A stretch of DNA of 64,000 nucleotides from Planctomycetota bacterium (GCA_018242625.1 JAFEBO010000006.1:405132-469131); one strand, 5' to 3'. Shown: positions 2,456 to 21,625, counted from the first letter of the stretch. Notes: generated by a model from the letters alone, not told the origin. Program-made: numbers and translations.

Positions 2456-2461
2456 TATGCT
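2456..2461 (+). promoter_or_regulatory. Putative -10 box of nuoE
   Basis: TATGCT, identical to the box before the sigma gene, ends 8 nt before the ATG at 2470. It favours that start and a near-leaderless transcript. Confidence 0.35.
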
Positions 2462-2469
2462 TGGCACCT

Positions 2470-3009
2470 ATGGCATGGATCGTGAAAGACTCGGCTGGGA
2501 TGAAGGTGGAGCGGCGTTCGGAGCCGTATCTGACTGGCGCGATGCGGGAGCATCTGACGAAGCAGATTCTGCCGCGGTATGAGCAGAAGAAGGGGGCGCT
2601 TTTGCCGTGCCTGCACGAGGTGCAGCACGCGTATGGGTGGATCCCGGGGCAGGCGATGGAAGAGATCGCCTCGTTTCTTGGTGTGGCGCCGTCGGAGGTG
2701 TTGGACACGGCGAGTTTTTATGAGGAGTACTGGCTGAAGCGCAAGGGCGAGCACCTTGTGAGCGTCTGCCGCTCTATTGCCTGCGAGTTCTGCGGGCAGC
2801 CGGCGATCACGCAGGCGGTGAAGGATGCGCTTGGGATTGATGTGGGCGAGACGACGGAGGATGGGAAGTTCACGCTGATCGAGCTTGAGTGTCTGGGCTC
2901 GTGCGGGACGGCGCCGGCGTTATTGATTGATGAGACGCTGCATGAGAATGTGAAGCCGGAGGAGATCAGGGGGCTTTTGGAGAAGGTGGGTAGAGGCACC
3001 GGGCATTAG
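2470..3009 (+). CDS. nuoE: NADH-quinone oxidoreductase subunit E
   Basis: The 24-kDa subunit of respiratory complex I, carrying the N1a [2Fe-2S] cluster next to the NADH/FMN subunit NuoF. In the 179-residue product the four ligands are visible as Cys100 and Cys105 (VCRSIAC) and Cys141 and Cys145 (CLGSC), with the thioredoxin-like fold expected of the family. The ATG at 2470 follows a TATGCT box; an ATG at 2500 and a TTG at 2461 are alternatives. The gene stands alone among lipoprotein genes, and nuoF lies about 17 kb downstream at 20186. No other complex I genes are nearby. Confidence 0.93.
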   Translation: MAWIVKDSAGMKVERRSEPYLTGAMREHLTKQILPRYEQKKGALLPCLHEVQHAYGWIPGQAMEEIASFLGVAPSEVLDTASFYEEYWLKRKGEHLVSVCRSIACEFCGQPAITQAVKDALGIDVGETTEDGKFTLIELECLGSCGTAPALLIDETLHENVKPEEIRGLLEKVGRGTGH

Positions 3010-3793: not shown

Positions 3794-3818
3794 GGCTTGC
3801 TCAAAAAGGAATCGTGGG

Positions 3819-4274: not shown

Positions 4275-4299
4275 GAAGTGATGGAGAGCGGAGGGCCGG

Positions 4300-4854: not shown

Positions 4855-5043
4855 ACGCTGCTGGCCCGGGGCTTCCTCACGAGACCCGGCGTGAAGGTAT
4901 TTTAATCTGTTGGCGGGACGATTGCAAGGGCAATTTGTCCGGTGGCGTGCGTGTCGGCGGGTGCGGGCGGAATTTTTACGAAATCGTGATGCCGCGGGTG
5001 AGGGTTTCTCGCTGGTGGCATGGGTGATCGAGGAGGCTGGAAC

Positions 5044-7164
5044 ATGAGGAATGGCATTTTTGGTTTTGGCGCGGTGGTGGTGCTGGTTTGCGGCTGTGCT
5101 CTGGGGGAGGGCTTGCGCATTACGGGCGAGCGGGCGGGGGCACCGGGGTTTGAAGACCGGTCGATGTCGAGCACTTACCAGTACGACCATGGCGGCTCGA
5201 CGTCGCTGCAGTGGACCACGGCATCGACATTGGAATCGTTTGAGATGCAACGATTCGATGCGGCGGCGGGGGGTGATGCGATCGAGTCGATCTCGGTGGC
5301 GTGGGGAAACGTTCCGGCGGGAGCCGCGGGGCGGGTTTTTGTATGGGGTAATCCGACGGGCGACGGGAATCCGACGCACGTGACGCTGTTGCACGAGCAG
5401 TCGGTGACGGTTGGGGCGACGGGATACGCCTTGAACACGTACACGCTGAGCAGGGCCATCCCGGTGAGCGGGGTATTTTTTGTGGGAATGTCGGTTGCGC
5501 AGCGCGGCTATTCGGATTCTCCGATGGTGATCGACACGACGACGGCGTATGTGGAGGGGCGGTCGTTCATCGGATATTCGACGGGCGTCTTTGACGCGGC
5601 GGATCCGGGGAACAACGCCTCGCCTCCTGCAGATATCAAGTCGAAAGGATTCCCGTATTACGTCGTGGTGCGTGCCGGCGGCTCGAACGCCGGGTTTTCA
5701 TATCAGGGGCGGCTGAGCGCCGGGGGCGCGAATTACACGGGGAGCGCGGATTTCAGATTTACCCTGTATGACGCGCCGAGCGGGGGCAACGCGCTGACTG
5801 GGGTGTATGAACTGAGCGGAGTCGCGGTGAGCGGGGGTGTGTTTAGCGTGCGGATTCCGGCGAGCAGCGGGACGTTTGTGAATCAGGCGGAGCCGTATGT
5901 GGATGTGGCGGTGGCGACGCCGTCGGGGAGCGGGAACTTTCAGACGCTGCTGCCGCGCGGGCGGGTGACGAGTGTTCCGTCGGCTTTGACGGTTCCCTGG
6001 GCGGGTGTGACGGGAGTTCCGGAGCATTTGTCGCCGTGGACAGAGGTGACCGGCGGTATCGGGTATGGGGGCATGGTCGGGATTCGGACCGGAGCGCCGG
6101 GGGCGGCGCTTGATGTGTGGGGGGGAGGATCGGGAACGCCGAGTTTTCCGCAGCTTCATGTCGCGGCGGAGGCGGCGGCGCCGTACGGATCGTTTCTGTC
6201 GCTGGATGCGCGGGCGATTCCGGGCGGCAAGGAGTGGCTTGTGTTTTCTTCGGGCGGGAGTGCCTTGGAGGGAGCGGGCAAGCTGATCTTCAAGAACCAG
6301 ACTTCGGCGGTGTACGGGCTGACGCTGGACGGGGGGCTTGTGGGGATCGGGAACACGAACCCGTCGGTTTCGCTGGACATTTTGCGGAGCACGAACGGGA
6401 ACATGCTGCGGATGACGTCGGACGCCACGGATGCGTCGATCCTGTCGCTGATCAACACGTCGGCGGGGGGAAGAAATTACTCGCTGCTGTCGCAGGGGAG
6501 TGCGCTGAATCCGGGGAGCTTCTCGATCCGGGATGTTTCGTCGAGCGCGGACCGGCTGACGATTTTTCCGAACGGGCGCATCGGGATGGGGAGCACATCG
6601 ACGCCTGCGGCCGTGCTGGACGTGACGGCGAACGGCGGGTCGACCACGGCGATCGCCGGGCGTGCGGGCCCCGGGCCGAGCGCGGTCGGGATTTATGGCT
6701 GGGCGACCGGGCCGGGCCCCAAGGCGGCGATCTTTGACGGGCCGGTGGTCGTGAACGGCACGCTGACGGTGAATGGAAGCGTGAGCAAGACGAGCGGGAG
6801 TTTCCGGATTCCGCACCCGCTGGATCCGGAGGGGAAGTGGCTGTACCACTCGTTTGTCGAATCGCCGGACATGATGAACGTGTACAACGGGATCATCGTG
6901 CTGGATGGCGAGGGGCGGGCGGTCGTGGAGCTGCCGGATTACTTCCAGGCGCTCAACAGCGACTACCGGTATCAGCTGACGGCGGTGGGGGCGTCGATGC
7001 CGGGTCTGTATGTGGCGCGTGAGATCGAGAAGAACCGGTTCGAGATCGCCGGGGGGAAGGCGGGAGCGAAGGTGAGCTGGCAGGTGACGGGGATACGCCA
7101 GGACGAGGCGGCCAAGCGGGAGCGGATCGTGCCCGAGCGTGAGCGGGCGGCGCTCGATCCCTGA
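5044..7164 (+). CDS. Secreted fibre-like protein, YQG module, no S74 domain
   Basis: A 706-residue secreted protein. It starts at ATG 5044 behind AGGAGG and has a signal peptide ending near CALG. A unique N-terminal beta domain (about 20-215) is followed by the YQG module (FSYQGRL, about 220-330) shared by eight proteins here. Next come three tail-fibre-like 'VGI(G/R)xxxPxxxLDV' units. The last 110 residues start at FRIPHPLDPEGKWLYHS and run through VESPDMMNVYNG and KVSWQVTGIR, a terminal domain I have seen in planctomycete secreted proteins. It lacks the S74 chaperone of later members. A surface fibre or adhesin is inferred. Confidence 0.8.
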   Translation: MRNGIFGFGAVVVLVCGCALGEGLRITGERAGAPGFEDRSMSSTYQYDHGGSTSLQWTTASTLESFEMQRFDAAAGGDAIESISVAWGNVPAGAAGRVFVWGNPTGDGNPTHVTLLHEQSVTVGATGYALNTYTLSRAIPVSGVFFVGMSVAQRGYSDSPMVIDTTTAYVEGRSFIGYSTGVFDAADPGNNASPPADIKSKGFPYYVVVRAGGSNAGFSYQGRLSAGGANYTGSADFRFTLYDAPSGGNALTGVYELSGVAVSGGVFSVRIPASSGTFVNQAEPYVDVAVATPSGSGNFQTLLPRGRVTSVPSALTVPWAGVTGVPEHLSPWTEVTGGIGYGGMVGIRTGAPGAALDVWGGGSGTPSFPQLHVAAEAAAPYGSFLSLDARAIPGGKEWLVFSSGGSALEGAGKLIFKNQTSAVYGLTLDGGLVGIGNTNPSVSLDILRSTNGNMLRMTSDATDASILSLINTSAGGRNYSLLSQGSALNPGSFSIRDVSSSADRLTIFPNGRIGMGSTSTPAAVLDVTANGGSTTAIAGRAGPGPSAVGIYGWATGPGPKAAIFDGPVVVNGTLTVNGSVSKTSGSFRIPHPLDPEGKWLYHSFVESPDMMNVYNGIIVLDGEGRAVVELPDYFQALNSDYRYQLTAVGASMPGLYVAREIEKNRFEIAGGKAGAKVSWQVTGIRQDEAAKRERIVPERERAALDP

Positions 7165-7262
7165 ACTGCGGCGGCGATTGTGCGCGGGGGGCGAATACGA
7201 TGGGGCCGGCGCGCGGCGGCACGTGCGCCGGCCCGTTCATTGCCGCATTGGTTGGCTTACGC

Positions 7263-7766
7263 ATGCCCTCACTCGACATTGTTTCGAAACTGAATTTCGC
7301 CGAGCTCGACAACGCGATCAACAACGCCAAGAAGGCGGTGCTTGCGCGGTTTGATTTCCGGGGGAGCCACACGGAGATCGAGGTGGTGAAGGAGGCGGGG
7401 AAGAAGGAGCAGACGATCAAGCTGGTGGCGGATGACGAGAGCAAGATGAAGGGTCTGCAGGAGATGTTCGAGAGCGCGTGCATGAAGCGGGGGATCCTGC
7501 CGCGGAGCTTTGACTGGGGCGAGGTGGAGCCGACGATTGCGGGGAAGATGAAGCGGATCGCGAAGATCCAGAACGGGATTCCGCAGGAGAAGGCGAAGGA
7601 GATGGTGAAGCGGATCAAGGAGACGAAGCTGAAGGTGCAGGCTTCGATCCAGGGGGATGAGATCCGGCTGAGCGGGAAGCAGATCGATGATCTTCAGTCG
7701 GTGATGAAACTGCTGGAGGCGGAGGTGGAATTGCCGCTGCAGTTTGTGAACATGAAGAGGGACTAG
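7263..7766 (+). CDS. yajQ: YajQ-family nucleotide-binding protein
   Basis: A 167-residue cytosolic protein matching the YajQ/UPF0234 family along its length: MPSLDIVSKLNFAELDNAI at the start, ARFDFRGSH, and the C-terminal LPLQFVNMKRD. Family members bind c-di-GMP or other nucleotides and are linked to regulation, though the role varies by species. The ATG at 7263 gives the canonical N-terminus; an upstream GTG-type extension is not supported. It is one of only two housekeeping-type genes inside the fibre-protein array. Confidence 0.92.
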   Translation: MPSLDIVSKLNFAELDNAINNAKKAVLARFDFRGSHTEIEVVKEAGKKEQTIKLVADDESKMKGLQEMFESACMKRGILPRSFDWGEVEPTIAGKMKRIAKIQNGIPQEKAKEMVKRIKETKLKVQASIQGDEIRLSGKQIDDLQSVMKLLEAEVELPLQFVNMKRD

Positions 7767-7988
7767 GCGGGGAGGGGGGGCGGCTCCGGGTGCTTTGGGG
7801 ACCGTTTGAGCACGCGAAAAAATCGGGGTGAGCGCAAGCGTGCGGCGCGTGAAAGCCCGTGACCCTTGGGCGATTCGAGAAATTTTTCAAAGATTGTTTT
7901 CGGGAAGACCGCGTTCACGCTTGTGGAAGGGGTGACCCCACGCGCTTTGGGCGACTTCGGGGTGTGACGCCTGTTTTCCGGAGGTTTT

Positions 7989-9242
7989 ATGCGAATTGTT
8001 GTGGTCGCGTTGTTGTGCCTGATTTCGCTTGCTGCCCGGGCGCAGTCGCTGACGGCGTTCACTTTTCAGGGTGAACTCAAGAGCGATGGGGCGAATTACA
8101 ACGGCGCTGCGGACCTGCGGTTCCGGCTGTTCGATTCGGCATCGGGCGGCAGCGAGATCGGGCCGCAGGTGACGGTGCCGTCGGTGCCGGTGAGCGGGGG
8201 CCGGTTCACGACGATGCTGGACTTTGGATCGGTGTTCCGGGCTGGCGTGCAGGGCTATATCGAGATGGATGTGCGTACTCCGGCGGGGAGCGGGAGCTTT
8301 ACGACGCTGGCGGGGCGTCAGGCGGTGAGTTCGACTCCGCTGGCGCAGGGGATCGCGGGTGTGGTGCTGACGCCATCCGCGGAAGTGGTGGATCAGTTCC
8401 AGACTTCCGTGAGCGCGTTCGTCTCGCTCAACACGTCGGTGAATTACCAGGCTTTCGTTGCGGGTGTCTCGGGGACATTGACGGGCGTTGAGCTCTACGT
8501 GCTGGGGAATGGGTTGCCGGTCACCGTTCAGGTGTACGAGGGGAGCGGTGCGAGCGGGAAACTGCTCGCGTCCGTGACGAACGGGTCCGGACCGACGGGG
8601 GCACGGCGGTTTACCCTGCCGCCCGTGCAGATCCTGGCGGGGGCGACGTACACGCTCGGGATTTCCGGGGCGGGGTCGATCGGGTATTCGCAGAGCGCGA
8701 GCTACGCGATTCCGGGCGTGCCGTACAACTGGTACTTTCGCACGTTTGTGACGCCGATGCCCGCGCTCAAGGTCAAGGCGCTGGAAGCGGACTCGGTCAA
8801 ATGGTCGAACGTGGCGGGGGTACCGGCGAATGTCGCGAATCCGCCGCTGGTCTTCAGCTTTGTGCGCGAGTCGCTGACGCCGCAGAATTCGTCCGAGACG
8901 TCGCCGTCGCTGATCTCGGGCGCGAGCGCGGACTTTACCCTCCAGAAGGGGGTCGCGATCATCAACTGGTCGCTGAGCTGCTATACAAACTTCGGGTCGA
9001 CCGCCTTTGCGTTCCGTGTGCGGGTTATCAATCAGGATGGAATCGCGACGTATTCGCCCCTGAAGCAGTTCTACTTCAACACGCCGGGGCAGCACCAGTC
9101 GATCTCGGGCACGGTCACGATGAATGTCGAAGCGGGAACGCAGTCGGTCGCGCTGGTTCAGAACCGTACCACCGGCGTAGGGGCGTTCTCGGTGGACTCG
9201 TTCGACAGTCTGTCGTTCACGATTCTGAATGTGAGGCAGTAG
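7989..9242 (+). CDS. Secreted YQG-module protein with QSFTAG-like module, no S74 domain
   Basis: A 417-residue secreted protein with a signal peptide cut near ARAQ and GGAGG before the ATG. It has the YQG module (FTFQGEL, about 25-120), then a second module (about 150-265, NYQAFVAGVSGTLTGVEL ... FRTFVTP) that is also found in the proteins at 14024, 15787 and 17451. A 'WSNVAGVPANV' linker is typical of tail-fibre-like proteins. The C-terminal 120 residues form a different, probably beta-rich domain instead of the S74 chaperone. The 222 bp upstream of this gene holds no other feature I can support. Confidence 0.77.
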   Translation: MRIVVVALLCLISLAARAQSLTAFTFQGELKSDGANYNGAADLRFRLFDSASGGSEIGPQVTVPSVPVSGGRFTTMLDFGSVFRAGVQGYIEMDVRTPAGSGSFTTLAGRQAVSSTPLAQGIAGVVLTPSAEVVDQFQTSVSAFVSLNTSVNYQAFVAGVSGTLTGVELYVLGNGLPVTVQVYEGSGASGKLLASVTNGSGPTGARRFTLPPVQILAGATYTLGISGAGSIGYSQSASYAIPGVPYNWYFRTFVTPMPALKVKALEADSVKWSNVAGVPANVANPPLVFSFVRESLTPQNSSETSPSLISGASADFTLQKGVAIINWSLSCYTNFGSTAFAFRVRVINQDGIATYSPLKQFYFNTPGQHQSISGTVTMNVEAGTQSVALVQNRTTGVGAFSVDSFDSLSFTILNVRQ

Positions 9243-9270
9243 CGCGGCGTCCTCGGGCGTCGTGCCGGCG

Positions 9271-9276
9271 TAAGGT
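9271..9276 (+). promoter_or_regulatory. Putative -10 box of the osmC-like gene
   Basis: TAAGGT ends 5 nt before the ATG at 9282. It is a weak match to TATAAT but fits the leaderless spacing seen elsewhere. Confidence 0.25.
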
Positions 9277-9281
9277 GCGTC

Positions 9282-9686
9282 ATGGTTGAGATCGGGGCGA
9301 CGTACCGAGGGAACAAGAAGTGTGAATTGACCCATCCGGGCGGAGCGACGCTGCGCACCGATGCGCCGAAGGACATTGGCGGGGATGCGAGAGCGTTCTC
9401 GCCGACGGACCTGGTGGCGGCGGGATTGGCCTCTTGCATTTTGACGACGCTGGCGATGTATGGGGAGCGGCACGGGATCGATGTGAGCGGGGCGAGCGCG
9501 GTGGTGGAGAAGCACATGAGCGCGGATTCGCCGCGGCGGATAGCGCGGCTGCCGGTGGTGGTGACGCTGCCGGCGAGCGTGCCGGAGGAGATGCGGGAGC
9601 GGGTGGAGCGTGCGGGGCGGACGTGTCCGGTGCATGCAAGCTTGCATCCGGGGGTGGATGCGCCGATAAGTTATCGGTATCTGTGA
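9282..9686 (+). CDS. OsmC/Ohr-family protein
   Basis: A 134-residue OsmC-like protein. The two family cysteines are present: Cys52 in AGLASCILTTLA and Cys115 in GRTCPVHASL. In this family they reduce organic hydroperoxides with thiol help. The short length and the FSPTDLVAAGLASC segment fit the YhfA/OsmC branch better than classical Ohr, so the substrate is uncertain. It is cytosolic and unrelated in function to the secreted array around it. Confidence 0.9.
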   Translation: MVEIGATYRGNKKCELTHPGGATLRTDAPKDIGGDARAFSPTDLVAAGLASCILTTLAMYGERHGIDVSGASAVVEKHMSADSPRRIARLPVVVTLPASVPEEMRERVERAGRTCPVHASLHPGVDAPISYRYL

Positions 9687-9830
9687 TCGTTCGGGATCTG
9701 CCGCGCGAGGGGTTCGGGGGCGTGCCGGGGGGCCCGATTTGCTCTTGGGTCGTGGGTAGGGGTGCGTTCTGCTGATTCTCCGCGTGTGGCGTCTGTGAGC
9801 GCTGCTTCGTGACGTTGCGTGGAGTTGATT

Positions 9831-10433
9831 ATGAAGAAGTCGGTCTTTGTGGCGGCGTTGGTTGCCTTGATGTCGGGCACGGCGCTTGGGCAGACGGGGT
9901 CTGCATTTACTTATCAGGGGCGGGTGACGAGCAATGGTGCGCCTGTCTCCGGGCTGGCGACGGTGCAGTTGTCGCTCTGGAAGGATGCGTTTTCGAACAA
10001 TGTTGCGGACCGGATCGGGAGCGTGCAGACGCTGAACAACGTTGCTGTGAGCAACGGCGTTTTCACGGTGATCGCGAACTCGCTTCTGGAATTTGGGGTC
10101 AATCCGTTTAATGGTGAGGCGCGGTGGCTGCAGGTGGCGGTGAATGGCGTGGCGGTGTTGCCGGGGGGGGGCAGCACTTTCGCGTTTTTCAAGATCGAAG
10201 AGATGACGTCCGGCAGTGGAGTTCAGCTTGTGGAAGTCGGTGCGTGGTCCAGCGTCACCGCGTCGGGGGCCGTCGTCCGAAACGGTCAAACGCTGACAAT
10301 TTCCTGGGTGGTGCCGGTGAACGGTGCCGGAGCTCGCAGCTTTCGGACGGTGCTGACCAACTCGAGCACATCGACGACGGTGCTGTATTGGACGTCAACG
10401 CTGAATGCTCTGTACCTGCCCAAGACGTATTGA
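9831..10433 (+). CDS. Short secreted YQG-module protein with poly-G tract
   Basis: A 200-residue secreted protein. The signal peptide ends near ALGQ, and GGAG lies 8 nt before the ATG. Residues 24-115 are the YQG module (FTYQGRV ... RWLQVAVNG), but the usual 'LxPRxxxxxAPxA' end of the module is missing. It is replaced at a run of nine G (10163-10171). The remaining 85 residues are a compact, probably beta domain unlike the other members. The G run invites length variation, either real (phase variation) or as a sequencing artefact; neighbouring frames do not restore the family sequence. Confidence 0.7.
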   Translation: MKKSVFVAALVALMSGTALGQTGSAFTYQGRVTSNGAPVSGLATVQLSLWKDAFSNNVADRIGSVQTLNNVAVSNGVFTVIANSLLEFGVNPFNGEARWLQVAVNGVAVLPGGGSTFAFFKIEEMTSGSGVQLVEVGAWSSVTASGAVVRNGQTLTISWVVPVNGAGARSFRTVLTNSSTSTTVLYWTSTLNALYLPKTY

Positions 10434-10684
10434 GGGGTGCAAGGCGGAGAGCAGGAAGTCGGTCGGACGGCTTTCGATCCGGGTGAAAAGTATTCAACGA
10501 GTCGCCGGACTCGTGAGGGCGAAGGCCGCCGGTTCTCGCCCTAGGTGCTGCGGTGCGGAGATTCCGTGCCCGGGAGAATCCAGAGTGCCGGATGGGTGAC
10601 GCGGCGACGCGTGTTGTCTTTGTGCGTCATTTGGGCTTGCTCTGGGAGCCCCCCTGTGCGAAAGTAGCAGGCGGAGGTGTTGCT

Positions 10685-12052
10685 ATGCGGTGGAATCTGT
10701 CTGCTGTTGCGAGTTGTGCGATCGTGTGTGCCGGTGTCTTCGGGGCGCCGGGTGGGATCAATTCCGCGCCGATCACGATCGGCGATAATTCGAATGCGAG
10801 TCCGTATCCGAGTCAGATCGTGATTGGTTCTCCGCTCACGATTACGAATATCTCTGTCGGGCTGCGCGGTCTTTCGCACGCGCGATTGAGCGATCTTTCG
10901 GTTCTCCTGGTTTCACCCACGGGCAAGAAGATCATGCTTCTTGCGAATGCGCCGGGGAGCGCGTCGGCGCCCATCGATCTGTTTCTTGCTCCGGAAGGCC
11001 AGTTGATTCTCGCGGAACCGCTTAGTGGCGAGAAGCTTTATCGGCCGACGGTGATCCCTGCTCCCGTTGCCATGCCCGCTCCAGCCCCTGGGCTTCCGTA
11101 CGAAACATCGTTTGCATCGCTGATCGGTGAGGATGCCGCGGGCACGTGGTCGCTGTACGTCCGGGACAATGTTGCGGGGGTGGCGGGCCAGATCGCATCG
11201 GGATGGTCGATCACTCTCAACGCTCCGAGTGGGGCCCTGGTGAGCAGCGAGTTCGGCTATCAGGGCGTGCTGAAGCAGAACGGCGCGGCGTTGAACGGGA
11301 CCTTCGATATTCGCATGCGGCTGTTTCGCTCGCCGCTGTTTGTCGGCACGCCGGCGGGAACGGCGACCGCTTTCGCTATTCCGGTTGAGAACGGCGTTTT
11401 CTCGACCAGTTTTACGGTGCCGGATTCGGTGATCGAGGCCGGGCAACAGCTTTGGGCGGAGATCGCGGTCAAGGGCGCCGGCGATGCGGACTTTGTAACG
11501 ATTGAGCCTCGGCAGATGCTGATGTCGGCACCGTTCGCGACGTACGCCAACGTGGCAGCGCGGGCGAATGTGGCGGACACGATCGTGTCCGTGGACTGGT
11601 CCCAGGTTCAGAATGCGCCCTGGGCGGCGCAGGCATCCAGCGCTATTTCCAACACCAACAGCGGCAACGTGCTGATCGGGACCACAACCGGGACTTCCAA
11701 GCTCACGGTGAACGGAACCATTGAGTCGCTTTCGGGAGGAGTGAAGTTTCCCGATGACTCGGTTCAGACCACGGCCGCCACAACTTCGGTGATCGGCAGC
11801 CGATCGGTTCTCACGACGCTCGGCGCGATTGCTGCCGATAGCCAACTCTCGGTCGGGGTTTCCTTCACCGGCACGTCGTTTCAGACAACAGACGTCGTCG
11901 TTGTTTCTCCCAGTGAAGCGCTCCCGAGCGGAGTTGGCATTCTGTACGCGCGTGCTTCGAGCGCGTTTCAGGCTCAGTTCGTGGTACGGAATTTCAGCGC
12001 TTCGCCTGTAAACATCCCGCAGATGACGTGGACCGTGAAAGTGATCCGATAG
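10685..12052 (+). CDS. Secreted protein: P-domain-like + YQG module
   Basis: A 455-residue secreted protein, ATG at 10685 behind GGAGG. After the signal peptide, residues 25-180 resemble the beta-jelly-roll P/Homo-B domain found behind subtilisin-like proteases (LSDLSVLLVSPTGKK ... AAGTWSLYVRDNVAG), but no protease domain is present. The YQG module follows (FGYQGVL, about 190-300). It continues with a VDWSQVQNAPW linker and one fibre-type unit ending FPDDSVQTTAA, common in tail-fibre-like proteins. The C-terminus is a beta domain, not S74. A surface or extracellular role is inferred. Confidence 0.75.
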   Translation: MRWNLSAVASCAIVCAGVFGAPGGINSAPITIGDNSNASPYPSQIVIGSPLTITNISVGLRGLSHARLSDLSVLLVSPTGKKIMLLANAPGSASAPIDLFLAPEGQLILAEPLSGEKLYRPTVIPAPVAMPAPAPGLPYETSFASLIGEDAAGTWSLYVRDNVAGVAGQIASGWSITLNAPSGALVSSEFGYQGVLKQNGAALNGTFDIRMRLFRSPLFVGTPAGTATAFAIPVENGVFSTSFTVPDSVIEAGQQLWAEIAVKGAGDADFVTIEPRQMLMSAPFATYANVAARANVADTIVSVDWSQVQNAPWAAQASSAISNTNSGNVLIGTTTGTSKLTVNGTIESLSGGVKFPDDSVQTTAATTSVIGSRSVLTTLGAIAADSQLSVGVSFTGTSFQTTDVVVVSPSEALPSGVGILYARASSAFQAQFVVRNFSASPVNIPQMTWTVKVIR

Positions 12053-12350
12053 CGGGATGATGTGGGGTGAGGTGGGGGTGAGCAAAAGTCCGGGGTTTTC
12101 TTTGCGCGCGTCGGTGGAGTGGCCGCTGGCCTTGGAGGCGAGCGGGATCGGGGTGTGAGGACCGAGAACCCGGACTTTGAGAGCGGATGGCGATGTCAAA
12201 TGGGAGTGGGTGCGCATTGGAAATGTGGCCATCGGTTAGCATGGCGTGCGAGGTGATGTGATTGGGCGTCGCCGCCGTCAAGCGGTGGCGGAGCCGTTTG
12301 TCCGTGGTTGAAGCCTGTGGGGGTGATCGAGTCCCCAGTGGAGAAGATCC
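12053..12350. other. 298-bp intergenic region inside the array
   Basis: Apart from the Shine-Dalgarno (GGAG) just before 12351, I see no gene, strong promoter or terminator here. Confidence 0.4.
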
Positions 12351-13925
12351 ATGATCCGCTGCGTTGCCGCTGTGATTTGGAGTGGGTTGCTATTGGTCTC
12401 TCAGGCGGCAGCCCAAGTGACGTACACCGCACCATTCCGCACGATCAAGGCGTCGACGGGTCAGCCGGGCGGCGTGAATGAAGCCTCGGCGCCGGGGCTT
12501 GACGACTGGAGCCAGTCAGTGTCGTCATCTGCAGGTGCGGGCGGAGCGTTTGCGTCGCAGGCGTCCTCGCTCGGCGCCATGGGCGCATCGCTGACCCTCA
12601 ATGCCAACGCGACGGGATCAACCTTTGCATCGAGCGTGTGCAGCTTTTCGTTCGTCCCGGCCGCGGCGATGTCCGTGCAGATTGTGGGAGAAGGAGATGG
12701 AGATGATGTGACGTTCTCGCTGAACGGTCCGGGTGTCTCGCTCTCCCGCGTCGCGAGCGAGAGCGGATCAAACTGGAACCTCACGGCGGTCCTGCAGGCT
12801 GGCCAGAGTTACACATTTGCCTCTTCCGCCACGGACGCAGGAACGATGTCGGCCGGTTTTCTGCAGCTGTCGTTGACCTTTGCGTTCGTGCCTGTGCCGC
12901 AGGGGCGCGGCTTTTCGTATCAGGGCGTGTTGCGTGATGCCTCCGGTCAACCGATCACGACGCCGACGGACATGGAGTTCCGGCTTTTCTTCAATCCGAC
13001 TATGGCGGGGACACAGGTGGGACCGACGATTACGGCCAACGCCGTCACGCCGGAGCGTGGTGTGTTGACGCGGGTACTTGACTTTGGCGACGTGTTTGAT
13101 GGCGACGCGTTGTGGCTCGAGGTGAGCGTTCGCAATCCGGCGGGCAGCGGATCGTTCGCTCCCGTTCTGCCGCGGACCCCCATCGCGAGCGTGCCGTATG
13201 CGAACGATGCGCTGAGGGCCGCCGCGGCGGATTCGGCTGCGCTTGCGCAGAGCGTTCCTTGGAGTGGCGTAACGGGGATTCCGGCCAATGTATCCGGTGC
13301 GTTTTCGCCGTGGTCGGCCGCCGCCGGCGGGATCGCCTACCCCGGCGGACGGGTCGGAATCGGAACGTCGACGCCGGCCACAGCTCTCCATGTGGCGAGC
13401 GGGGCGGTGGGCACCGGCTGGCAGGTGCAGCTCACCAACTCCGCGGTGGCGCCGACATTCGAATCGGGAATGCGGCTGTCCGATAGCGGGTTCTTTGAGA
13501 TCACCAACCGCATCAACGGCTTTACCAAGTTCGCCCGCCTGGACAGCAATGGGGCCTGGACTGCGGTGTCGGATGAGCGGCTCAAGACAGATCTGACACC
13601 GTTTGATGGAGCGCTCGATGCGGTGCTTCGGCTGCGGCCGGTGCGGTTCAGGTGGCTCGGGGACGGCGTATCGGACTTTGGGTTTGTGGCCCAGCAGTTA
13701 CGAACGGTCGTGCCGGACGCGGTCGTTGGCGATGAGGCGAAGGGCTCGCTGACCGTGAATTACTCCAAACTGTCCACTGTGGCGATCGGTGCGATCCAGG
13801 AGCAGCAGGAAGAGATTCGGGCCCTGCGGGAAGAGAACGGGAAGCTGAAGACCGCCCTTGAACAGGTGGTTCGGCGACTCGAGCGCCTGGAGGCGGAGCG
13901 GATGGCGGAGAACGTGCGGCGGTAA
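12351..13925 (+). CDS. Secreted fibre-like protein with C-terminal S74 self-cleaving chaperone
   Basis: A 524-residue secreted protein. It has a signal peptide (cut near AAAQ), a unique N-terminal beta domain (about 25-185), the YQG module (FSYQGVL, about 190-300), the linker PWSGVTGIPANV and one VGIGTSTP unit. It ends in a peptidase S74/endosialidase-type intramolecular chaperone, with the Ser407 and Lys412 pair in SDERLK, then LRPVRFRW, GFVAQQL and LTVNYSKL. A C-terminal coiled coil (about 480-518) follows. In phage tailspikes this domain drives trimerisation and is then released by cleavage before the Ser. A signal peptide on such a protein points to periplasmic or extracellular maturation. 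Confidence 0.85.
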   Translation: MIRCVAAVIWSGLLLVSQAAAQVTYTAPFRTIKASTGQPGGVNEASAPGLDDWSQSVSSSAGAGGAFASQASSLGAMGASLTLNANATGSTFASSVCSFSFVPAAAMSVQIVGEGDGDDVTFSLNGPGVSLSRVASESGSNWNLTAVLQAGQSYTFASSATDAGTMSAGFLQLSLTFAFVPVPQGRGFSYQGVLRDASGQPITTPTDMEFRLFFNPTMAGTQVGPTITANAVTPERGVLTRVLDFGDVFDGDALWLEVSVRNPAGSGSFAPVLPRTPIASVPYANDALRAAAADSAALAQSVPWSGVTGIPANVSGAFSPWSAAAGGIAYPGGRVGIGTSTPATALHVASGAVGTGWQVQLTNSAVAPTFESGMRLSDSGFFEITNRINGFTKFARLDSNGAWTAVSDERLKTDLTPFDGALDAVLRLRPVRFRWLGDGVSDFGFVAQQLRTVVPDAVVGDEAKGSLTVNYSKLSTVAIGAIQEQQEEIRALREENGKLKTALEQVVRRLERLEAERMAENVRR

Positions 13926-14023
13926 GGAGTGGATTGTCGGATGTTGCGTACTCGGCGCGGGAATGGTGTTCTTTTCAGCGGCGGGTACGGGTAAACTGCG
14001 GTTTGTCTCCCGGAGATTTGAGC

Positions 14024-15613
14024 ATGAGCATCCGAGCGTGTGTTGCCGTTGCGTGGTCGGTGATGGCCTTTGCGGCGGTGGCCCAGACTTCGTTCACGTA
14101 CCAGGGCCGGCTGGAATCGGCCGGGGCGGCCGCAACAGGGAACGCGGACTTCAAGTTTCGGCTCTATGGGCAGGCCTCGGGCGGCCCGATGATCGGGAGC
14201 GAACTGACCAGGGCCAATGTGGGAGTGAGCAAGGGGGTCTTCGCGACCGATCTGGACTTTGGCGATGCGGCGTTTCTGCCCGGGTCTTCGCGCTGGCTGG
14301 AGATCGATGTGCGGATGCCGGCGGGAGGTGGGAGCTACGTCACGCTTTCGCCGCGGGCGGCTGTGAGTGCCGCACCGCTGGCGCAGGGGATTGCCGGCAT
14401 AGCGATGACACGCGCGGGTGCGCAGAGTGTGGACCAGAACCAGTTCGACGGTTTCTGGGGCGGAGCCGTGACGGACAGGATCGACTTCACTCCGACCTGG
14501 GAGTCATTCACGGCGGGCAAGACAGGTGCGCTCACCGGCGTTGCTCTCGATGGTTCCGGCGTCGTGAACGGCAGCGCGAGCGCGATGACGATTCAGATCT
14601 ATTCCGGTGTAGGCACTTCGGGGGCGATGCTCGGCTCGACGGTGGTGATGGTGCCGCAGGGCCAGAGCGGCAGCGTGCCGGTCGCTTCATTTCCCAACAT
14701 CACGGTGACGGCGGGCTCGAAGTACACCATTGCGCCAACGGGCACGGTCTTTCTCGTCAAACCCAACAACCTGATCGCAGGCTCGGTGGTCGGCCCGACA
14801 AACGCGAATCCGTTCCTGTTCAAGACGTACGTGACGCCGGAGGCGACCATTGCCACCAAGGCGAGCCGGGCGGGGTTTGCCGATGCGTCCGCGAAGGTGG
14901 ACTGGCTGGGTGTTGATAACGTGCCGGCGAATGTGCGGAACGCATTTTCGCCGTGGGTGGCGGATTCGACGGGCTGTCGCCTGACGGGGAGTTACGCGCA
15001 GATCGACACGGGCTCGCTGCTGCAGTTCGGAGGCGCAGCGGAGAATCTGGATCCGATCGCGCTCCGGCGTTTCAATTATACGTTCGAGCAATCGGGTCTG
15101 GAGCTGATCCTGGGCAACGATAACGGCATCAGCGGCGCGAACGACGCGTTCATCATTACCGCGAGCGGCGTTACGCTTTTCCAGTTCAACACGCAGAGCG
15201 GCGGGCAGGCGCTCAAGGCCGGCGGAGGATCCTGGGGCGTGCTTTCGGATGCGAGGGCAAAGCGCGACATCGAGCCGCTCGATGGAGCGCTCGATCGTCT
15301 GCTGCGGTTGCGTGGCCGGACGTACTTCTACAGCGATCCGTCGCTTGCCGGAGCGTCGGATGGGCGATGCACCGGGTTTGTCGCGCAAGAGGTGGAGCCC
15401 TTCTTCCCCGAGTGGATCGGTGAGAGCCGCGGCATGAAGACGCTCAATATCAAGGGATTCGAAGCGCTGACCGTCGAGTCGCTGCGGGAGCTGCGTGCGG
15501 AGAAAGATTTGCAGATCGAGAATCTCAAAGCCGAGAACCGGGACAAGCAGCGCGAGATCGACGATCTGAAGGCCCGGCTGGAACGGCTGGAGCGGGCGGT
15601 GCTGGCCAAGTAG
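14024..15613 (+). CDS. Secreted S74 fibre-like protein, divergent chaperone
   Basis: A 529-residue protein starting at ATG 14024 (CGGAGATTTGAGC upstream) with a signal peptide cut near AVAQ. The order is YQG module (FTYQGRL, about 22-125), QSFTAG-type module (TWESFTAGKTGALTGV ... FKTYVTP, about 150-270), linker VDWLGVDNVPANV, a variable region, then S74 (SDARAK with Ser408 and Lys413, GFVAQEVEPFFPEW, ALTVESLRELR). A heptad-rich tail (about 485-525) follows. Its S74 differs from the other three by an insert (SDPSLAGASDGRC) and by ending in a different strand order, so it is an older branch. Confidence 0.84.
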   Translation: MSIRACVAVAWSVMAFAAVAQTSFTYQGRLESAGAAATGNADFKFRLYGQASGGPMIGSELTRANVGVSKGVFATDLDFGDAAFLPGSSRWLEIDVRMPAGGGSYVTLSPRAAVSAAPLAQGIAGIAMTRAGAQSVDQNQFDGFWGGAVTDRIDFTPTWESFTAGKTGALTGVALDGSGVVNGSASAMTIQIYSGVGTSGAMLGSTVVMVPQGQSGSVPVASFPNITVTAGSKYTIAPTGTVFLVKPNNLIAGSVVGPTNANPFLFKTYVTPEATIATKASRAGFADASAKVDWLGVDNVPANVRNAFSPWVADSTGCRLTGSYAQIDTGSLLQFGGAAENLDPIALRRFNYTFEQSGLELILGNDNGISGANDAFIITASGVTLFQFNTQSGGQALKAGGGSWGVLSDARAKRDIEPLDGALDRLLRLRGRTYFYSDPSLAGASDGRCTGFVAQEVEPFFPEWIGESRGMKTLNIKGFEALTVESLRELRAEKDLQIENLKAENRDKQREIDDLKARLERLERAVLAK

Positions 15614-15786
15614 CAGGATCAGCACACCGGGGACGGCGGCACAAGGACGCCCGGACGATTGTCAACCTGATTTTGCAAACTGCCCGGTCGGCTGAGGGCC
15701 GCCGGGCGCGGTTCTCGCTTGCCTTGCGGGTCCATCCGGCTGGATGGGCGGGACTCCGGCGGATTGCAGAATCAGGGAGCGCAAGC

Positions 15787-17382
15787 ATGAAGACGATATC
15801 TCGGTGGGCGAGAGTGGCGGGCATCGCGATGTTGCTGGGCGGTGCGGGAACCACCGCATGTGCGCAGTTTCAGCCCACGCTACAGGGACAATTGCGGACA
15901 GATAGTGGACAGGCGCTGACAGGCACTGTGGATCTGCGCTTGTCGCTGCACACCGCCCCGACCGGAGGCACCCCGCTGCAGCAGTTTGTGCAGAACGGCG
16001 TTGCGGTCTCCGGTGGTGTCTTTTCGCTCAAGCTGCCGTTTGATTTGTGGAAGTACGGCAACGCTTCGGGGCTCTACGTGGGGATTGAGGTGAAGAACCC
16101 GTCCAACTCCTGGGTCGAGCTGACGCCCCGACAGCCGCTGGGGGCGGCGCCCGTGGCGCTCACGCTGCCCGGAGTCACCATCAGTTCGGACGAGGTGGTG
16201 AATGTGAACATCTCGGTTTCGGCCGGCAACAACGCCGTGGTGCGTCAGGGTGGCTGGCAGTCTTTCACCTGCACCGCGAGCGGCGAGCTGCGGGCTGTCC
16301 TGCCGGCGCTCTCGAACCTGGGGACCGGGCTTGTCACCGGGACTGTCAACATCCGTCCCGGCGAGGGCATGACGAACCCGCCAATAGCCACGACGACTTT
16401 CACGATCCTGCCGAACTCCAGTGTCGGCAAGATCATTCTTCCGACGGCTGTTGCGATCAGTGCCGGAGATGTCTACACCGTCGAGGTGGAGCCGTACCCG
16501 AACAACAATCTTGTCTGGTACGGGGCCTACGGCGATGTGTACTCGGGCGGCACATCGGGCGCTTCGACTCCCCCGATCGCTTTCAACTACGACCGCGCCA
16601 TGCAGACGCTTGTGACATCGCACAATGGCGCCCGCAACTACTTCTTCGGGGGCGATGTTCGGGCGTACAACCTGTTCACGGAGGGCACCGTGTCCATGGG
16701 CACGGCCAGTGTGAACGAGCTGACGGCGGACGTCGCGAGTGTTACCGGCGTCCTGACCGCGGGCGGGGCCGTTATCAACGGGCCAGTCTCCGCCACCGAC
16801 GCGATCGTCGGCGGGAAAGTCGGGATCGGTGCGACGCTCCCCACGGCGCAGCTTCAGGTGCGGTCGCCCAGCGTGCCTTCGGGATTCCAGGTCCATCTCA
16901 CCAACGACGCTGTCGCCAACGCCAACTTCCGCACCAGCGGGTTGCGGGTCAGCGACGCGGGTTTTTTCGAAGTTTCCAATTCGATCTCCGGTCCCAACTT
17001 CGCGAGGCTGTCGAGCACCGGCGTGTGGACGGCTGTGTCGGACGCGCGGCTCAAATCCGACGTCGCCCGTGCGGATGGTCTGCTCGACGCGGCTCTGAAG
17101 CTGCGGCCCGTGACCTTCCGCTGGAACGCGGACGGCTTGAGGGACACCGGCCTGATCGCGCAGGAGGTTCGGGACGTCCTGCCGTCGTTCGTGCTGGGTG
17201 ATGAGTCGCGCGAGATGCTGACGGTGGACTATCCGCATCTGTCCGTCGTCGCGATCGGCGCGGTGCAGGAACTCGAGGCCCGGGTTGCCACCCTGGAACG
17301 GGAGAACCGCCGGCTGCGAGAGCAGGTCGCACGGATTGATGCAGCTCTTCAGAGCATCGCGCGCACGCAACAGCTCAAGTGA
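15787..17382 (+). CDS. Secreted S74 fibre-like protein, paralogue A
   Basis: A 531-residue protein, ATG at 15787 behind GGGAG. It has a signal peptide (cut near ACAQ), a YQG-type module (PTLQGQL, about 28-135), a QSFTAG-type module (GWQSFTCTASGELRAV), a VGIGATLP unit, then SDAGFFEVSN and S74 (SDARLK with Ser418 and Lys423). A coiled coil of about 35 residues ends it. From SDAGFFEVSN onward it is very close to the next gene, down to shared DNA, while the N-terminal half is much more diverged. This fits tandem duplication with a conserved maturation module and a variable head. Confidence 0.85.
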   Translation: MKTISRWARVAGIAMLLGGAGTTACAQFQPTLQGQLRTDSGQALTGTVDLRLSLHTAPTGGTPLQQFVQNGVAVSGGVFSLKLPFDLWKYGNASGLYVGIEVKNPSNSWVELTPRQPLGAAPVALTLPGVTISSDEVVNVNISVSAGNNAVVRQGGWQSFTCTASGELRAVLPALSNLGTGLVTGTVNIRPGEGMTNPPIATTTFTILPNSSVGKIILPTAVAISAGDVYTVEVEPYPNNNLVWYGAYGDVYSGGTSGASTPPIAFNYDRAMQTLVTSHNGARNYFFGGDVRAYNLFTEGTVSMGTASVNELTADVASVTGVLTAGGAVINGPVSATDAIVGGKVGIGATLPTAQLQVRSPSVPSGFQVHLTNDAVANANFRTSGLRVSDAGFFEVSNSISGPNFARLSSTGVWTAVSDARLKSDVARADGLLDAALKLRPVTFRWNADGLRDTGLIAQEVRDVLPSFVLGDESREMLTVDYPHLSVVAIGAVQELEARVATLERENRRLREQVARIDAALQSIARTQQLK

Positions 17383-17450
17383 CGCTCGGACGATCTGGTG
17401 GCCCCGTTGTTTGGTCCCGAACGCATTGCACATTCTTTGGAGGTGACGGC

Positions 17451-19193
17451 ATGTTGCTCAACAGCTTCAGGTCCGGTTCGCGATTGCTGGCGGCGGCCGC
17501 TCTGGCGGCGTGCGTCGCGGGTGAGGCGCGGTCCCAGACGTCCACTTCGGTGCAGGGCGTGCTCCGATCGGAGAACGGCCAGCCGGTGAGCGGGCCGAGC
17601 GTTCTTCGGTTCTCGCTCTACTCGTCGCCCACCGGTGGCACACCTCTGCAACAGACCCAGCAGGCCGTGGATGTGTCGCAGGGGGTGTTCTCGGCGTCGC
17701 CCGGCTTCGATCCACAGCTCTTTGGCGCCACCGAGGAGCGCTGGCTGGAGTTTGGCGTAGAGACCGCCCCCGGTGTGTTCCAGGCTTTGACCCCTCGGCA
17801 ACGCATCGGTGCCGCACCGTTGGCACTGACCATCCCGGGATTGCAGGTAACGCCCAAGCTCGTGATCGACCAGTCGGTGCCCAATTCGAATTCGTTCGCG
17901 ATACCGCTTCTGAACGATGGCATCCATTGGCAGTCGTTCACGACGGGCGGCGCCGGCGAAGTTCGTGCGGTGGAGGCCGGGCTTCAGAACACGTCCAGCG
18001 CCGATGCGACCATTACCGCCACGCTGTACCGAGGGCTCGGCGTCGAGGGGGTTCCCGTTGCGGTCACAACTGCAATTCTTCCCGCTGTGTCGGCAACGGC
18101 GCTCCGATTCACGTTCCCGGCGGCGGCGGCAGCCGCGGCGGAGGATGTTTTCACTGTCCAGCTGAGCTCGCCCGCACCCGTTATCTGGTTTGTGCAACGA
18201 AACAGCGGCTATTCCCGCGGCAGTTCGAACTTTGAGCCGAACGCGGATTACGCCATCACAACCTACCTCTCCAATCGTGCCGCGAGCTCCGAGTTTGAGT
18301 TCAAGGGCTCGGTCACCGCCACGACGGTCCGCGGCAGCTACGCGTTTTTCAACGAGATCGCTCAGGCGACGACCCTGATCGGGGTCAACGCGAACATCAC
18401 CGACACCCTGACCGCCGGCGCGGTGAGCGCCGGCACCATCAGCGCCAACAGCATCAACGCGAACACCTTCAACGTTCCCACGCTCACCAGCAGTTTCTTC
18501 TCGGGCCAATCGATGGCCCTGACCACCAACGCGGGAATCGGTCTGGCAAACCCCAGCCCCGATGTACGCCTGGAGATCAGCAAACAGAGCGTCGGCAGCG
18601 GATGGCACATGTACGTCTCGAACCCCGGCGCACCCGCCCAGTTCAATCGAACGGGCATGCGGGTCAGCGACGCCGGGTTCTTCGAGGTCTCGAACGCCCT
18701 TGCGGGTTCCAACTTCGCTCGGCTTTCCGGGACGGGTGCGTGGTCCGCCGTCTCCGATGCGAGGCTGAAGTCCGACGTCTCGCCCGCCGAGGGGCTCCTC
18801 GATGCCGCTCTGAAGCTGCGGCCCGTGAACTTCCGCTGGATCGCTGACGGCAAGCCCGACATGGGGTTCATCGCCCAGGAAGTCCGGGGCGTCCTTCCCG
18901 GCCTGGTCGTCGGCGATGAGAAAAGCGAGATGTTGACCGTCGATTACTCCCACCTGTCGGTGGTGGCGATCGGCGCGCTGCAGGAGCTGGCACGGGATCT
19001 TCGCGCTGAAAACCAGAGGCTGCGAGCGGAGATTGAGCAGATCAATACGAGCAGAGTCCGGGAACACGCGGCGGCCGAGACGGAAATGTCAACGCTCCGG
19101 ACGCGCCTGGAACGCCTCGAGGCGGCCATGGTTCGGGCCCAGAGCGGTGGGATCATCGGGGCCGCAAACGTACGCCGCGAAGCCCTCAAGTAA
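17451..19193 (+). CDS. Secreted S74 fibre-like protein, paralogue B
   Basis: A 580-residue protein, ATG at 17451 behind GGAGG. It has a signal peptide (cut near ARSQ), a YQG-type module (TSVQGVL, about 30-135), a QSFTAG-type module (HWQSFTTGGAGEVRAV), then a stalk-like stretch rich in TxxAGxxSAxxISAxS repeats (about 300-360). It ends in S74 (SDARLK with Ser435 and Lys440) and the longest coiled-coil tail of the set, about 65 residues. It is the closest relative of the gene at 15787. The 68-bp gap between them holds only the Shine-Dalgarno. Confidence 0.85.
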   Translation: MLLNSFRSGSRLLAAAALAACVAGEARSQTSTSVQGVLRSENGQPVSGPSVLRFSLYSSPTGGTPLQQTQQAVDVSQGVFSASPGFDPQLFGATEERWLEFGVETAPGVFQALTPRQRIGAAPLALTIPGLQVTPKLVIDQSVPNSNSFAIPLLNDGIHWQSFTTGGAGEVRAVEAGLQNTSSADATITATLYRGLGVEGVPVAVTTAILPAVSATALRFTFPAAAAAAAEDVFTVQLSSPAPVIWFVQRNSGYSRGSSNFEPNADYAITTYLSNRAASSEFEFKGSVTATTVRGSYAFFNEIAQATTLIGVNANITDTLTAGAVSAGTISANSINANTFNVPTLTSSFFSGQSMALTTNAGIGLANPSPDVRLEISKQSVGSGWHMYVSNPGAPAQFNRTGMRVSDAGFFEVSNALAGSNFARLSGTGAWSAVSDARLKSDVSPAEGLLDAALKLRPVNFRWIADGKPDMGFIAQEVRGVLPGLVVGDEKSEMLTVDYSHLSVVAIGALQELARDLRAENQRLRAEIEQINTSRVREHAAAETEMSTLRTRLERLEAAMVRAQSGGIIGAANVRREALK

Positions 19194-19325: not shown

Positions 19326-19766
19326 ATGCGAAGTATGTTCAGGCTGGACGGTCTGCTGGCGGGGATCGCGATTGGAGCCTGCGTGGCGGCGTCCGCGATG
19401 GCGGGGTATTCGCTCAAGGCATTCGTGATTGCGGGCGGGGGCGGCAGCCTCTCCGCCCCCGGCTACTCGTGCACGATGACCATCGGCCAGGCGGTCGCGA
19501 GTGCACCGGCCGCGTCCACGGGCGGGGGGTATGAGTTTCGGAGCGGGTTCTGGGTGATGGTGAACGGATGCCCGGCGGACCTGAACGGTGACGGACAGGT
19601 AGACGACGGCGACTTTGTGCTCTTCGCTTCGGCCTACGACCGGTTGATGTGCGAAGACCCGGCGATGCCTGCTGGATGCCCGGCTGATTTCAACAGGGAC
19701 GGGCTGGTGGATGATGCCGACTTTGTAACGTTTGCAGAGGCGTACAACCTCCTGATGTGTCCCTAG
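19326..19766 (+). CDS. Small secreted protein with dockerin-like twin motif
   Basis: A 146-residue secreted protein. The signal peptide is cut near AMAG. Residues 28-78 form a short beta module of the type 'GGGSLSAPGYSCTMTIGQA ... GGGYEFRSGFW' that is common in planctomycete and Bacteroidetes secreted proteins. The last 65 residues are the Cys-bracketed EF-hand pair (DLNGDGQVDDGDF, DFNRDGLVDDADF) ending CP-stop. It closes the secreted array before nuoF. Cell-surface attachment via the tail is inferred. Confidence 0.8.
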   Translation: MRSMFRLDGLLAGIAIGACVAASAMAGYSLKAFVIAGGGGSLSAPGYSCTMTIGQAVASAPAASTGGGYEFRSGFWVMVNGCPADLNGDGQVDDGDFVLFASAYDRLMCEDPAMPAGCPADFNRDGLVDDADFVTFAEAYNLLMCP

Positions 19767-20185: not shown

Positions 20186-21625
20186 ATGTCCTTCCCCCCC
20201 ATCAACCCGAACCTTGCCGCCCCTGTCCTTACGCAGCGCATCCCCTGCTGGCCCTACGCCGACCCCAAGGGCAGGCACATCGTCAGCTACGAGGAATACA
20301 CCCGTCCGGGGCCCAACGGCGCGGGGTATGAGTCGCTTCGCAAGGCGATCTCGATGAAGCCCGACGCGGTGACCGAAGAGGTCAAGAAGAGCGTGCTGCG
20401 CGGGCGCGGCGGCGCAGGATTCCCGACCGGCCTCAAGTGGACGTTCCTGCCCAAGCTCAAGACGAGCGAGGCGGGCCAGGAAGAGGATCCCGGTCAGCGC
20501 TATCTGGCGATCAACGCGGACGAGTCGGAGCCGGGGACGTTCAAAGACCGGCTGCTGATGGATTTCGATCCGCACCTGATGCTCGAGGGCATCGCGATCT
20601 GCTGCTATGCCTGCCGCATCAAGACGGCGTACATCTTCATCCGCGGCGAGTACCACCACCAGGCGAAGGTGCTCGAGAACGCGCTGAAAGAGGCGTACGC
20701 GAACGGCATTTTCGGCGGCAAGGGGCTGCTCAACGGCGCGAACACGGCGCGGGGCGGCAGCTTTGTCGTTGACTGCTACGTGCACCGGGGCGCGGGCGCG
20801 TACATCTGCGGAGAGGAAACGGGCCTGCTCGAGGCGATCGAGGGTAAGCGGGGCTGGCCCCGCATCAAGCCGCCCTTCCCCGCGATCAAGGGCCTTTTCG
20901 GCAAGCCGACGATCATCAACAACGTGGAGACGCTGTCGCACCTGCCGAGCATCATCCATCACGGCGCCGAGTGGTTCATGAAGCAGGGAAAGGTGAGCAC
21001 CTTCCCGAATACGCCGCCCAGCCACGGCACCAAGCTGATGGGCGTCTCCGGGCATGTGAACCGTCCGGGTGTTTTCGAGCTCGAGCTCGGCATCACGCTG
21101 CGTCAGCTCATCGAAGATCCGAAGCTCTGCGCGGGCATGCGCAACGGCAAGAAGTTCAAGGGCGCCATCGCCGGCGGCATCAGCATGGGCATCCTCGGCC
21201 CGGACCAGATGGACGCCGAGATGGATTTCGACATCGGACGCAAGAACAACGTGCTGGGCCTAGGCACCGCGTGCCCGACGGTCTTCGACGAGGACACCGA
21301 CATGGTGGCCGTGGCGCGCAACATCGCCCGGTTCTTCAAGCACGAAAGTTGCGGCCAGTGCACGCCGTGCCGCGAGGGGAGCGGCTGGCTTTATCAACTG
21401 CTCACGCGGATCGAAGGCGGCGACGGGCGCACGAAGGATCTGGATCTGGCGCTCGAAATCGCGACCAGCATGGGCAGCATGCCGGGCACGACGATCTGCG
21501 GCCTTGCCGACGGCAACAACTGGGCCGTTCGCACGATCATGAACAAATACCGCGCGGAGTTTGAGAAGCGTGTGAAGCCGACGAGCGTGGCGGTAAAGAT
21601 GACCGTGGGGGCGGGGGCGAGGTAA
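20186..21625 (+). CDS. nuoF: NADH-quinone oxidoreductase subunit F
   Basis: The 51-kDa flavoprotein subunit of complex I, which binds NADH, FMN and the N3 [4Fe-4S] cluster. In 479 residues the FMN/NADH loop (RGRGGAGFPTGLKW, 72-85), GAGAYICGEETGLLEAIEG (203-220) and the cluster ligands Cys389, Cys392, Cys395 (CGQCTPCREG) and Cys438 are all present, so it should be functional. There is no Shine-Dalgarno; a TACACT box lies 8 nt upstream. It is followed directly by a damaged lipoprotein gene instead of nuoG, and nuoE is about 17 kb upstream. Confidence 0.96.
   Translation: MSFPPINPNLAAPVLTQRIPCWPYADPKGRHIVSYEEYTRPGPNGAGYESLRKAISMKPDAVTEEVKKSVLRGRGGAGFPTGLKWTFLPKLKTSEAGQEEDPGQRYLAINADESEPGTFKDRLLMDFDPHLMLEGIAICCYACRIKTAYIFIRGEYHHQAKVLENALKEAYANGIFGGKGLLNGANTARGGSFVVDCYVHRGAGAYICGEETGLLEAIEGKRGWPRIKPPFPAIKGLFGKPTIINNVETLSHLPSIIHHGAEWFMKQGKVSTFPNTPPSHGTKLMGVSGHVNRPGVFELELGITLRQLIEDPKLCAGMRNGKKFKGAIAGGISMGILGPDQMDAEMDFDIGRKNNVLGLGTACPTVFDEDTDMVAVARNIARFFKHESCGQCTPCREGSGWLYQLLTRIEGGDGRTKDLDLALEIATSMGSMPGTTICGLADGNNWAVRTIMNKYRAEFEKRVKPTSVAVKMTVGAGAR

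Follow-up and report, generated by a model that had tools for sequence, protein, structure and literature searches.

What are secreted proteins that end like phage tail fibres doing in a run of genes beside nuoF on a planctomycete chromosome? The stretch analysed (the window) comprises 64,000 nucleotides of Planctomycetota bacterium GCA_018242625.1 (JAFEBO010000006.1:405132-469131), and coordinates are counted within it. Eight plus-strand open reading frames (ORFs) within 5020-19193 have in common one module of ~105 residues, the YQG module, as revealed by BLASTP and alignment. We consider it probable that this array encodes Sec-exported, most likely trimeric surface fibres akin to the mosaic adhesive trimer (MAT) proteins of Bdellovibrio bacteriovorus, with a shared YQG base, a shaft, exchangeable tips and self-release of an S74 chaperone in genes 5-8.

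The YQG modules of all eight genes are joined by BLASTP (best pair E 7e-45) and align with a mean column identity of 44%, bearing out the original prediction of eight same-strand genes with a common ~100-residue module. Two of its details need amendment: the same-strand run is not uninterrupted, a YajQ-like and an OsmC-like gene lying inside, and the proposed series of module motifs does not extend to gene 3, whose module lacks the LxPR...APxA end. Sec signal peptides, likewise foreseen for all eight proteins, are apparent at their N-termini by inspection, in gene 4 only from an internal Met at ~10685. The module stands directly behind the signal peptide in genes 2, 3, 6, 7 and 8; genes 1, 4 and 5 insert a domain of 150-200 residues ahead of it. 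The module is all-β, and its predicted structure, modelled alone, is confident (predicted local distance difference test, pLDDT, 91). Structure searches with the module alone found nothing but common β-sandwiches; the top score, Z 6.7 for a type II secretion pilotin, was shared by many unrelated chains, and no viral structure matched at E <=0.001. We claim no fold relative for the predicted structure.

Peptidase_S74 is a self-cutting chaperone familiar from phage tail spikes. Genes 5-8 carry it well above the Pfam cut-off (PF13884, 44.9-52.7 bits against 22), and the Pfam scan finds it missing from genes 1-4. The Ser-Lys motif is intact in each (SDERLK, SDARAK, SDARLK and SDARLK, in gene order), with coiled-coil-like sequence behind the domain, so the four S74 members originally described are all present. 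These domains align with solved phage S74 and MyRF domains (PDB 7dc3 match). The array proteins share with phage S74 tailspikes and fibres (K1F endosialidase, T5 L-shaped fibre, phi29 gp12) the S74 match, the Ser-Lys pair, the coiled coil behind and a shaft just ahead, but differ in having signal peptides, the YQG module and no phage context. The MyRF ICA domain offers a precedent for an S74-type domain in a cellular protein, although MyRF is a eukaryotic membrane-bound transcription factor. Of 41 alignable S74 sequences from several phyla, 40 retain both Ser and Lys, the Asp of SDxRxK being variable. Selection on cleavage is likely. The one exception is a paralogue in the source genome (L040, 5384-7435), where Cys replaces the catalytic Ser (LCDPRVK); this chaperone may remain attached or employ the Cys.

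Module and S74 are tied together far beyond chance. The source genome holds 16 YQG modules and 9 S74 domains, and 9/9 of the latter sit in module-bearing proteins; the 40 other family genomes contain 37 S74 domains, of which 25 are encoded in the same ORF as a YQG module. Such co-occurrence across genomes is what the original prediction had proposed to look for. That prediction also cast the members without a chaperone as partners; in hetero-complexes of this sort, the S74 members would donate the chaperone. Both kinds are indeed encoded side by side and the chaperone-less members are equally numerous, but S74 is altogether absent from several genomes that encode YQG proteins (for example G156, 12 modules), so the non-S74 members need none. 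They also possess tips of their own (the jelly roll of gene 2, the 'ct' domain of gene 1), and tips are exchanged; alternative tips are the likelier role, and we regard hetero-complexes as very improbable.

As judged by sequence comparison, tips and N-terminal domains are swapped among the genes. The N-terminal parts of genes 2 and 6 show 41% identity across 272 aligned positions, with the ends diverging into a jelly roll versus S74, and genes 5 and 7 share 51% identity in the C-terminal part and only 33% in the module. Another Phycisphaerales array (L112) joins the gene 4 P-domain to the gene 2 tip, and in G148, a relative, the gene 3 tip also terminates a YQG protein of 591 residues. The gene 1 'ct' domain (6796-7161, HPLDPEGKWLYHSFVESPDMMNVYNG) is unmatched in Pfam and NCBIfam but forms the C-terminus of roughly one YQG protein in four, in several phyla; about a third of the YQG proteins in a 52-locus scan end in S74. 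In the predicted model of gene 2, the module (block means 84-98) and middle domain are confident and the tip mostly has pLDDT 67-88. This tip is predicted to adopt a TNF/C1q-like fold: the model matches TNF-like jelly rolls with Z 9.0-10.6 across 114-124 residues (9.0-11.8 when other jelly rolls are included), among them the TNF-like lectins Bc2L-C (Z 10.6) and PLTL (Z 10.5) and C1q (Z 9.0).

The published counterpart of such an architecture is MAT. MAT proteins, 21 in Bdellovibrio, fall into S74 and non-S74 members, with self-cleavage and surface display demonstrated; some carry TNF-like tips, and their length is roughly 1,000 residues (PMC10769870). Their authors report no clear fold relative of the MAT N-domain, and a surface element still awaiting identification (PMC10769870). 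The N-domain is represented in NCBIfam by NF053851 (Bdello_MAT_N, curated cut-off 60 bits), which we used as a stand-in for Bdellovibrio sequences; a fragment of Bd1334 scanned against the genome contigs had given no match. From one set of YQG modules, 24/35 match NF053851 (best E 1.7e-9), the front part aligning to positions 10-81 and the end to 116-161; in a second set, taken mainly from other groups, 16/46 match (best 9e-8). The gene 5 module itself matches at E 7e-4 (19.4 bits). A planctomycete YQG fibre also matches the MAT protein Bd1334 (crystal structure 8OML) in sequence (E 2e-5), in the shaft.

The likeness extends to the signal peptide, the homologous β-rich N-terminal module, many paralogues per genome, a β-helical shaft bearing glycine-rich capping-loop motifs, ends with and without S74, and TNF-like tips; a division into S74 and non-S74 subgroups with varied tips is a MAT trait present in the array. 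Some observations count against a MAT-type fibre. No YQG module reaches the 60-bit cut-off, the best seen being 37.6 bits in a relative; the MAT N-domain lies right behind the signal peptide, a placement not matched by genes 1, 4 and 5; and the array proteins (202-714 residues) are shorter than MATs. The predicted gene 2 tip, moreover, matches the capsid projection of infectious bursal disease virus VP2 equally well as lectins, so its fold alone is no proof of glycan binding. The array further differs in its far-diverged module, tandem genes, an extra pre-module domain in three genes, a host not known as a predator and the companion gene alongside. Because no match exceeds the NF053851 cut-off we use the term MAT-like, and conclude that the YQG proteins are, on sequence grounds, distant homologues with a MAT-like plan and not MAT members. 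The idea of cellular S74 fibres is less new than the original prediction assumed, the MAT plan of Bdellovibrio having been published (PMC10769870). What is new is how widely such proteins are spread over the phyla, a tandem array next to nuoF in which tips are swapped, and the companion gene; a literature search covering few subscription papers found nothing on Planctomycetota S74 proteins or MAT homologues outside Bdellovibrio.

A MAT-like fibre would be built as follows. The YQG module would be the common base that mounts the fibre on the cell, followed by a β-helical shaft and a C-terminal exchangeable tip that would bind external targets (probably glycans). In genes 5-8 the S74 chaperone would gather three chains, cut at its Ser-Lys pair and be released, exposing the shaft end as a binding site, and in genes 1-4 other domains would act as tips. 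Duplication and tip exchange could thereby supply the cell with a repertoire. As secreted trimeric adhesive fibres, the products would act like trimeric autotransporter adhesins of the YadA type; membership of that class was rejected, Pfam finding no YadA anchor domain in any of the eight proteins.

Could the array instead be a relic or captured part of a phage or phage-like injection system (prophage tail fibres, or fibres of an extracellular contractile injection system, eCIS), with no surface role? The final ~190 residues of the S74 members do resemble phage tail fibres (PHROGs, phage records). This resemblance is confined to the end: gene 5 has matches in 296 phage records, where among the matches listed only the C-terminal part (residues 315-501) is matched, and 0/296 cover 80% of the query. 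A typical YQG module (L065) has no match in 50,697 phage records or in viral contigs, and one among plasmids, in Herpetosiphon. A pattern scan of 2.9 million viral contigs gave a single YQG locus, a host gene adjoining alaS with prophage-like genes alongside. Signal peptides stand on all array proteins, and phage and eCIS fibres need none. The identified neighbours are nuoE, nuoF, YajQ, OsmC, an aminotransferase and an ECF sigma factor, in keeping with the claim that phage genes are absent nearby; G+C is uniform over the whole locus, and YQG genes are kept beside nuoF in relatives. The contractile sheath (PF04984) was not found in the 92%-complete genome, control genomes being positive. We therefore rejected both the prophage reading, as the neighbours are not phage structural genes and the module is unmatched in phage records, and the eCIS reading, for want of a sheath gene. 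The relic explanation is already largely refuted, and we give it hardly any credence. What stands from the original prediction is a cellular, Sec-exported fibre family with phage-type S74 ends.

The site beside nuoF is old and chromosomal, its contents turning over. In G156, of the same family, seven YQG genes lie in tandem, the last stopping ~40 bases short of nuoF; G148 has two YQG genes at this site, G158 one and G181 one ~14 kb upstream, while six other relatives have no YQG gene within 20 kb beside nuoF. These occurrences are not independent events, as the genomes are related. In G148 (L126, 3100-3303), two YQG genes are separated by a fragment of 68 codons that resembles the nuoF start, with full nuoF adjacent, a sign of local duplication at the site.

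Beyond the family, an even draw of Planctomycetota has the YQG module in 25 of 147 genomes and S74 in 19 of 147. One genome scan gave 52 YQG loci, in Planctomycetota, Chloroflexota, Acidobacteriota, Verrucomicrobiota, Armatimonadota (including Fimbriimonadales), Gammaproteobacteria (Xanthomonadales) and a metagenome-assembled genome (MAG) named Leptolyngbya; single phylum assignments may be wrong, because most of these genomes are metagenome bins. Family sizes can be large, with 59 YQG modules and 21 S74 domains in the genome behind L096/L107 (G200) and 35 and 20 in that behind L075 (G192). In an Akkermansiaceae MAG (L084, 7364-8899), module and S74 part are two neighbouring ORFs, with a companion next; this is a split gene or a frameshift.

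The companion gene (19326-19766) encodes a signal peptide, a core of ~50 residues (GGG..TIGQ..GFW) for which there is no Pfam model, and a GC-type dockerin-like tail scoring just below its cut-off. At module loci in Chloroflexota, Verrucomicrobiota, Armatimonadota and Planctomycetota, homologues mostly start within ~130 bases of a YQG gene end, often overlapping the stop codon. Herpetosiphon aurantiacus, a cultured relative, has such a pairing of YQG gene and companion ORF (L141). As these loci had been chosen for the module, we tested the companion on whole genomes. Among 41 family genomes, 27 have module and companion, 2 have only the module, none has only the companion and 12 have neither (Fisher 1e-8, uncorrected for kinship), and the companion is present in 15/15 module-bearing genomes of other groups. 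Of the 56 companions in the family, 38 are no more than 8 kb from a module, 38/38 on its strand. The other 18 lie away from any detected module, and the companion is thus not exclusive to fibres; several of the companions, where inspected, come after other secreted proteins ending in dockerin-like tails. In Chloroflexota the tail resembles a YLP-box sorting motif (14 bits against a cut-off of 15). Three companions (L108 3079-3366, L097 9400-9705 and L078 4511-5053) match NCBIfam CPR_pilus_PamT weakly (E ~4e-4 to 6e-4, positions 5-78 of 241).

No anchor was found on the array fibres, and for that reason we propose that the companion may keep them attached to the cell surface; the locus should be extended to take it in. 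A tentative generalization, which we think possible and no better than that, is that MAT-like YQG fibres are a general surface-recognition system over several phyla with a dedicated, unnamed retention partner, its core binding the YQG module and its tail, dockerin-like or YLP-box, holding the fibre. The dockerin-like tail and the gene 4 P-domain recall parts of the cohesin-dockerin 'planctosome' proposed, for peptidases, in freshwater Phycisphaerae (PMC6461901).

Such a tail would also suit proteins that serve as structural components of a matrix outside the cell, a stalk or a surface layer, with tips joining each other and not foreign targets. The very large families of some genomes (the 59 and 35 modules above) fit this, as does the use of TNF/C1q-like folds in spore appendages and exosporium (structure matches to ExsF and BclA). 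Tip diversity and exchange within one array, however, suit recognition better than assembly, and it is the common module that stays constant, as it does in MAT fibres; a matrix role is in our judgement unlikely. MAT fibres have been described as predator tools (PMC10769870). If module and tip logic indeed recur across Planctomycetota, Chloroflexota, Acidobacteriota, Verrucomicrobiota, Armatimonadota and Gammaproteobacteria, interchangeable phage-like and TNF-like tips would be a common means for free-living bacteria to touch cells and surfaces. The companion gene makes retention of MAT-like fibres directly testable. If the proposal is true, its product would be a surface element of the sort that, according to the MAT authors, is yet to be identified (PMC10769870).

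Table 1 Features of the fibre locus and its landmarks, in window coordinates.
Feature	Position	Strand	Composition or remark
Gene 1	5020..7164	+	Likelier Met 5044; signal peptide, N-terminal β domain, YQG module 5680-6015, shaft with VGIG..P...L motifs, C-terminal 'ct' domain 6796-7161; without S74
Gene 2	7989..9242	+	Signal peptide, YQG module 8040-8375, DUF4082-resembling middle domain, predicted TNF/C1q-like tip 8841-9239
Gene 3	9825..10433	+	Signal peptide, YQG module 9891-10256 (module end not conserved), short C-terminal domain
Gene 4	10553..12052	+	Likely start ~10685; P-domain (PF01483), YQG module 11240-11566, short shaft and tip
Gene 5	12351..13925	+	N-terminal domain, YQG module 12900-13238, VGIG shaft, S74 13569-13724 (Ser407/Lys412), coiled coil
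Gene 6	14024..15613	+	YQG module 14081-14416, gene-2-like middle domain, S74 15245-15415 (Ser408), coiled coil
Gene 7	15784..17382	+	YQG module 15862-16191, middle domain, S74 17038-17196 (Ser419), coiled coil
Gene 8	17451..19193	+	YQG module 17529-17858, middle domain, S74 18753-18908 (Ser435), coiled coil
Companion gene	19326..19766	+	Signal peptide, core GGG..TIGQ..SGFW 19404-19559, GC-type dockerin-like tail 19569-19748
YajQ-like gene (DUF520)	7200..7766	+	Within run; outside the fibre system
OsmC-like gene	9282..9686	+	Within run; outside the fibre system
nuoE (2Fe-2S thioredoxin-like)	2461..3009	+	Left landmark
nuoF	20186..21625	+	Right landmark

The run of fibre genes is bounded by nuoE and nuoF (Table 1), and a promoter and terminator scan gave a result no better than chance. 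Between nuoE and the array (3293-4854) lie genes for three small putative lipoproteins, the first two paralogous (E ~1e-16), none with a Pfam match; they were rejected as fibre partners, homologues being absent from the examined loci bar one weak match. The nuoE-array region is flanked by genes for two proteins (13-855 and 19326-19766) with closely similar GC-type dockerin-like tails (E 3e-27), the companion core being present only in the right one.

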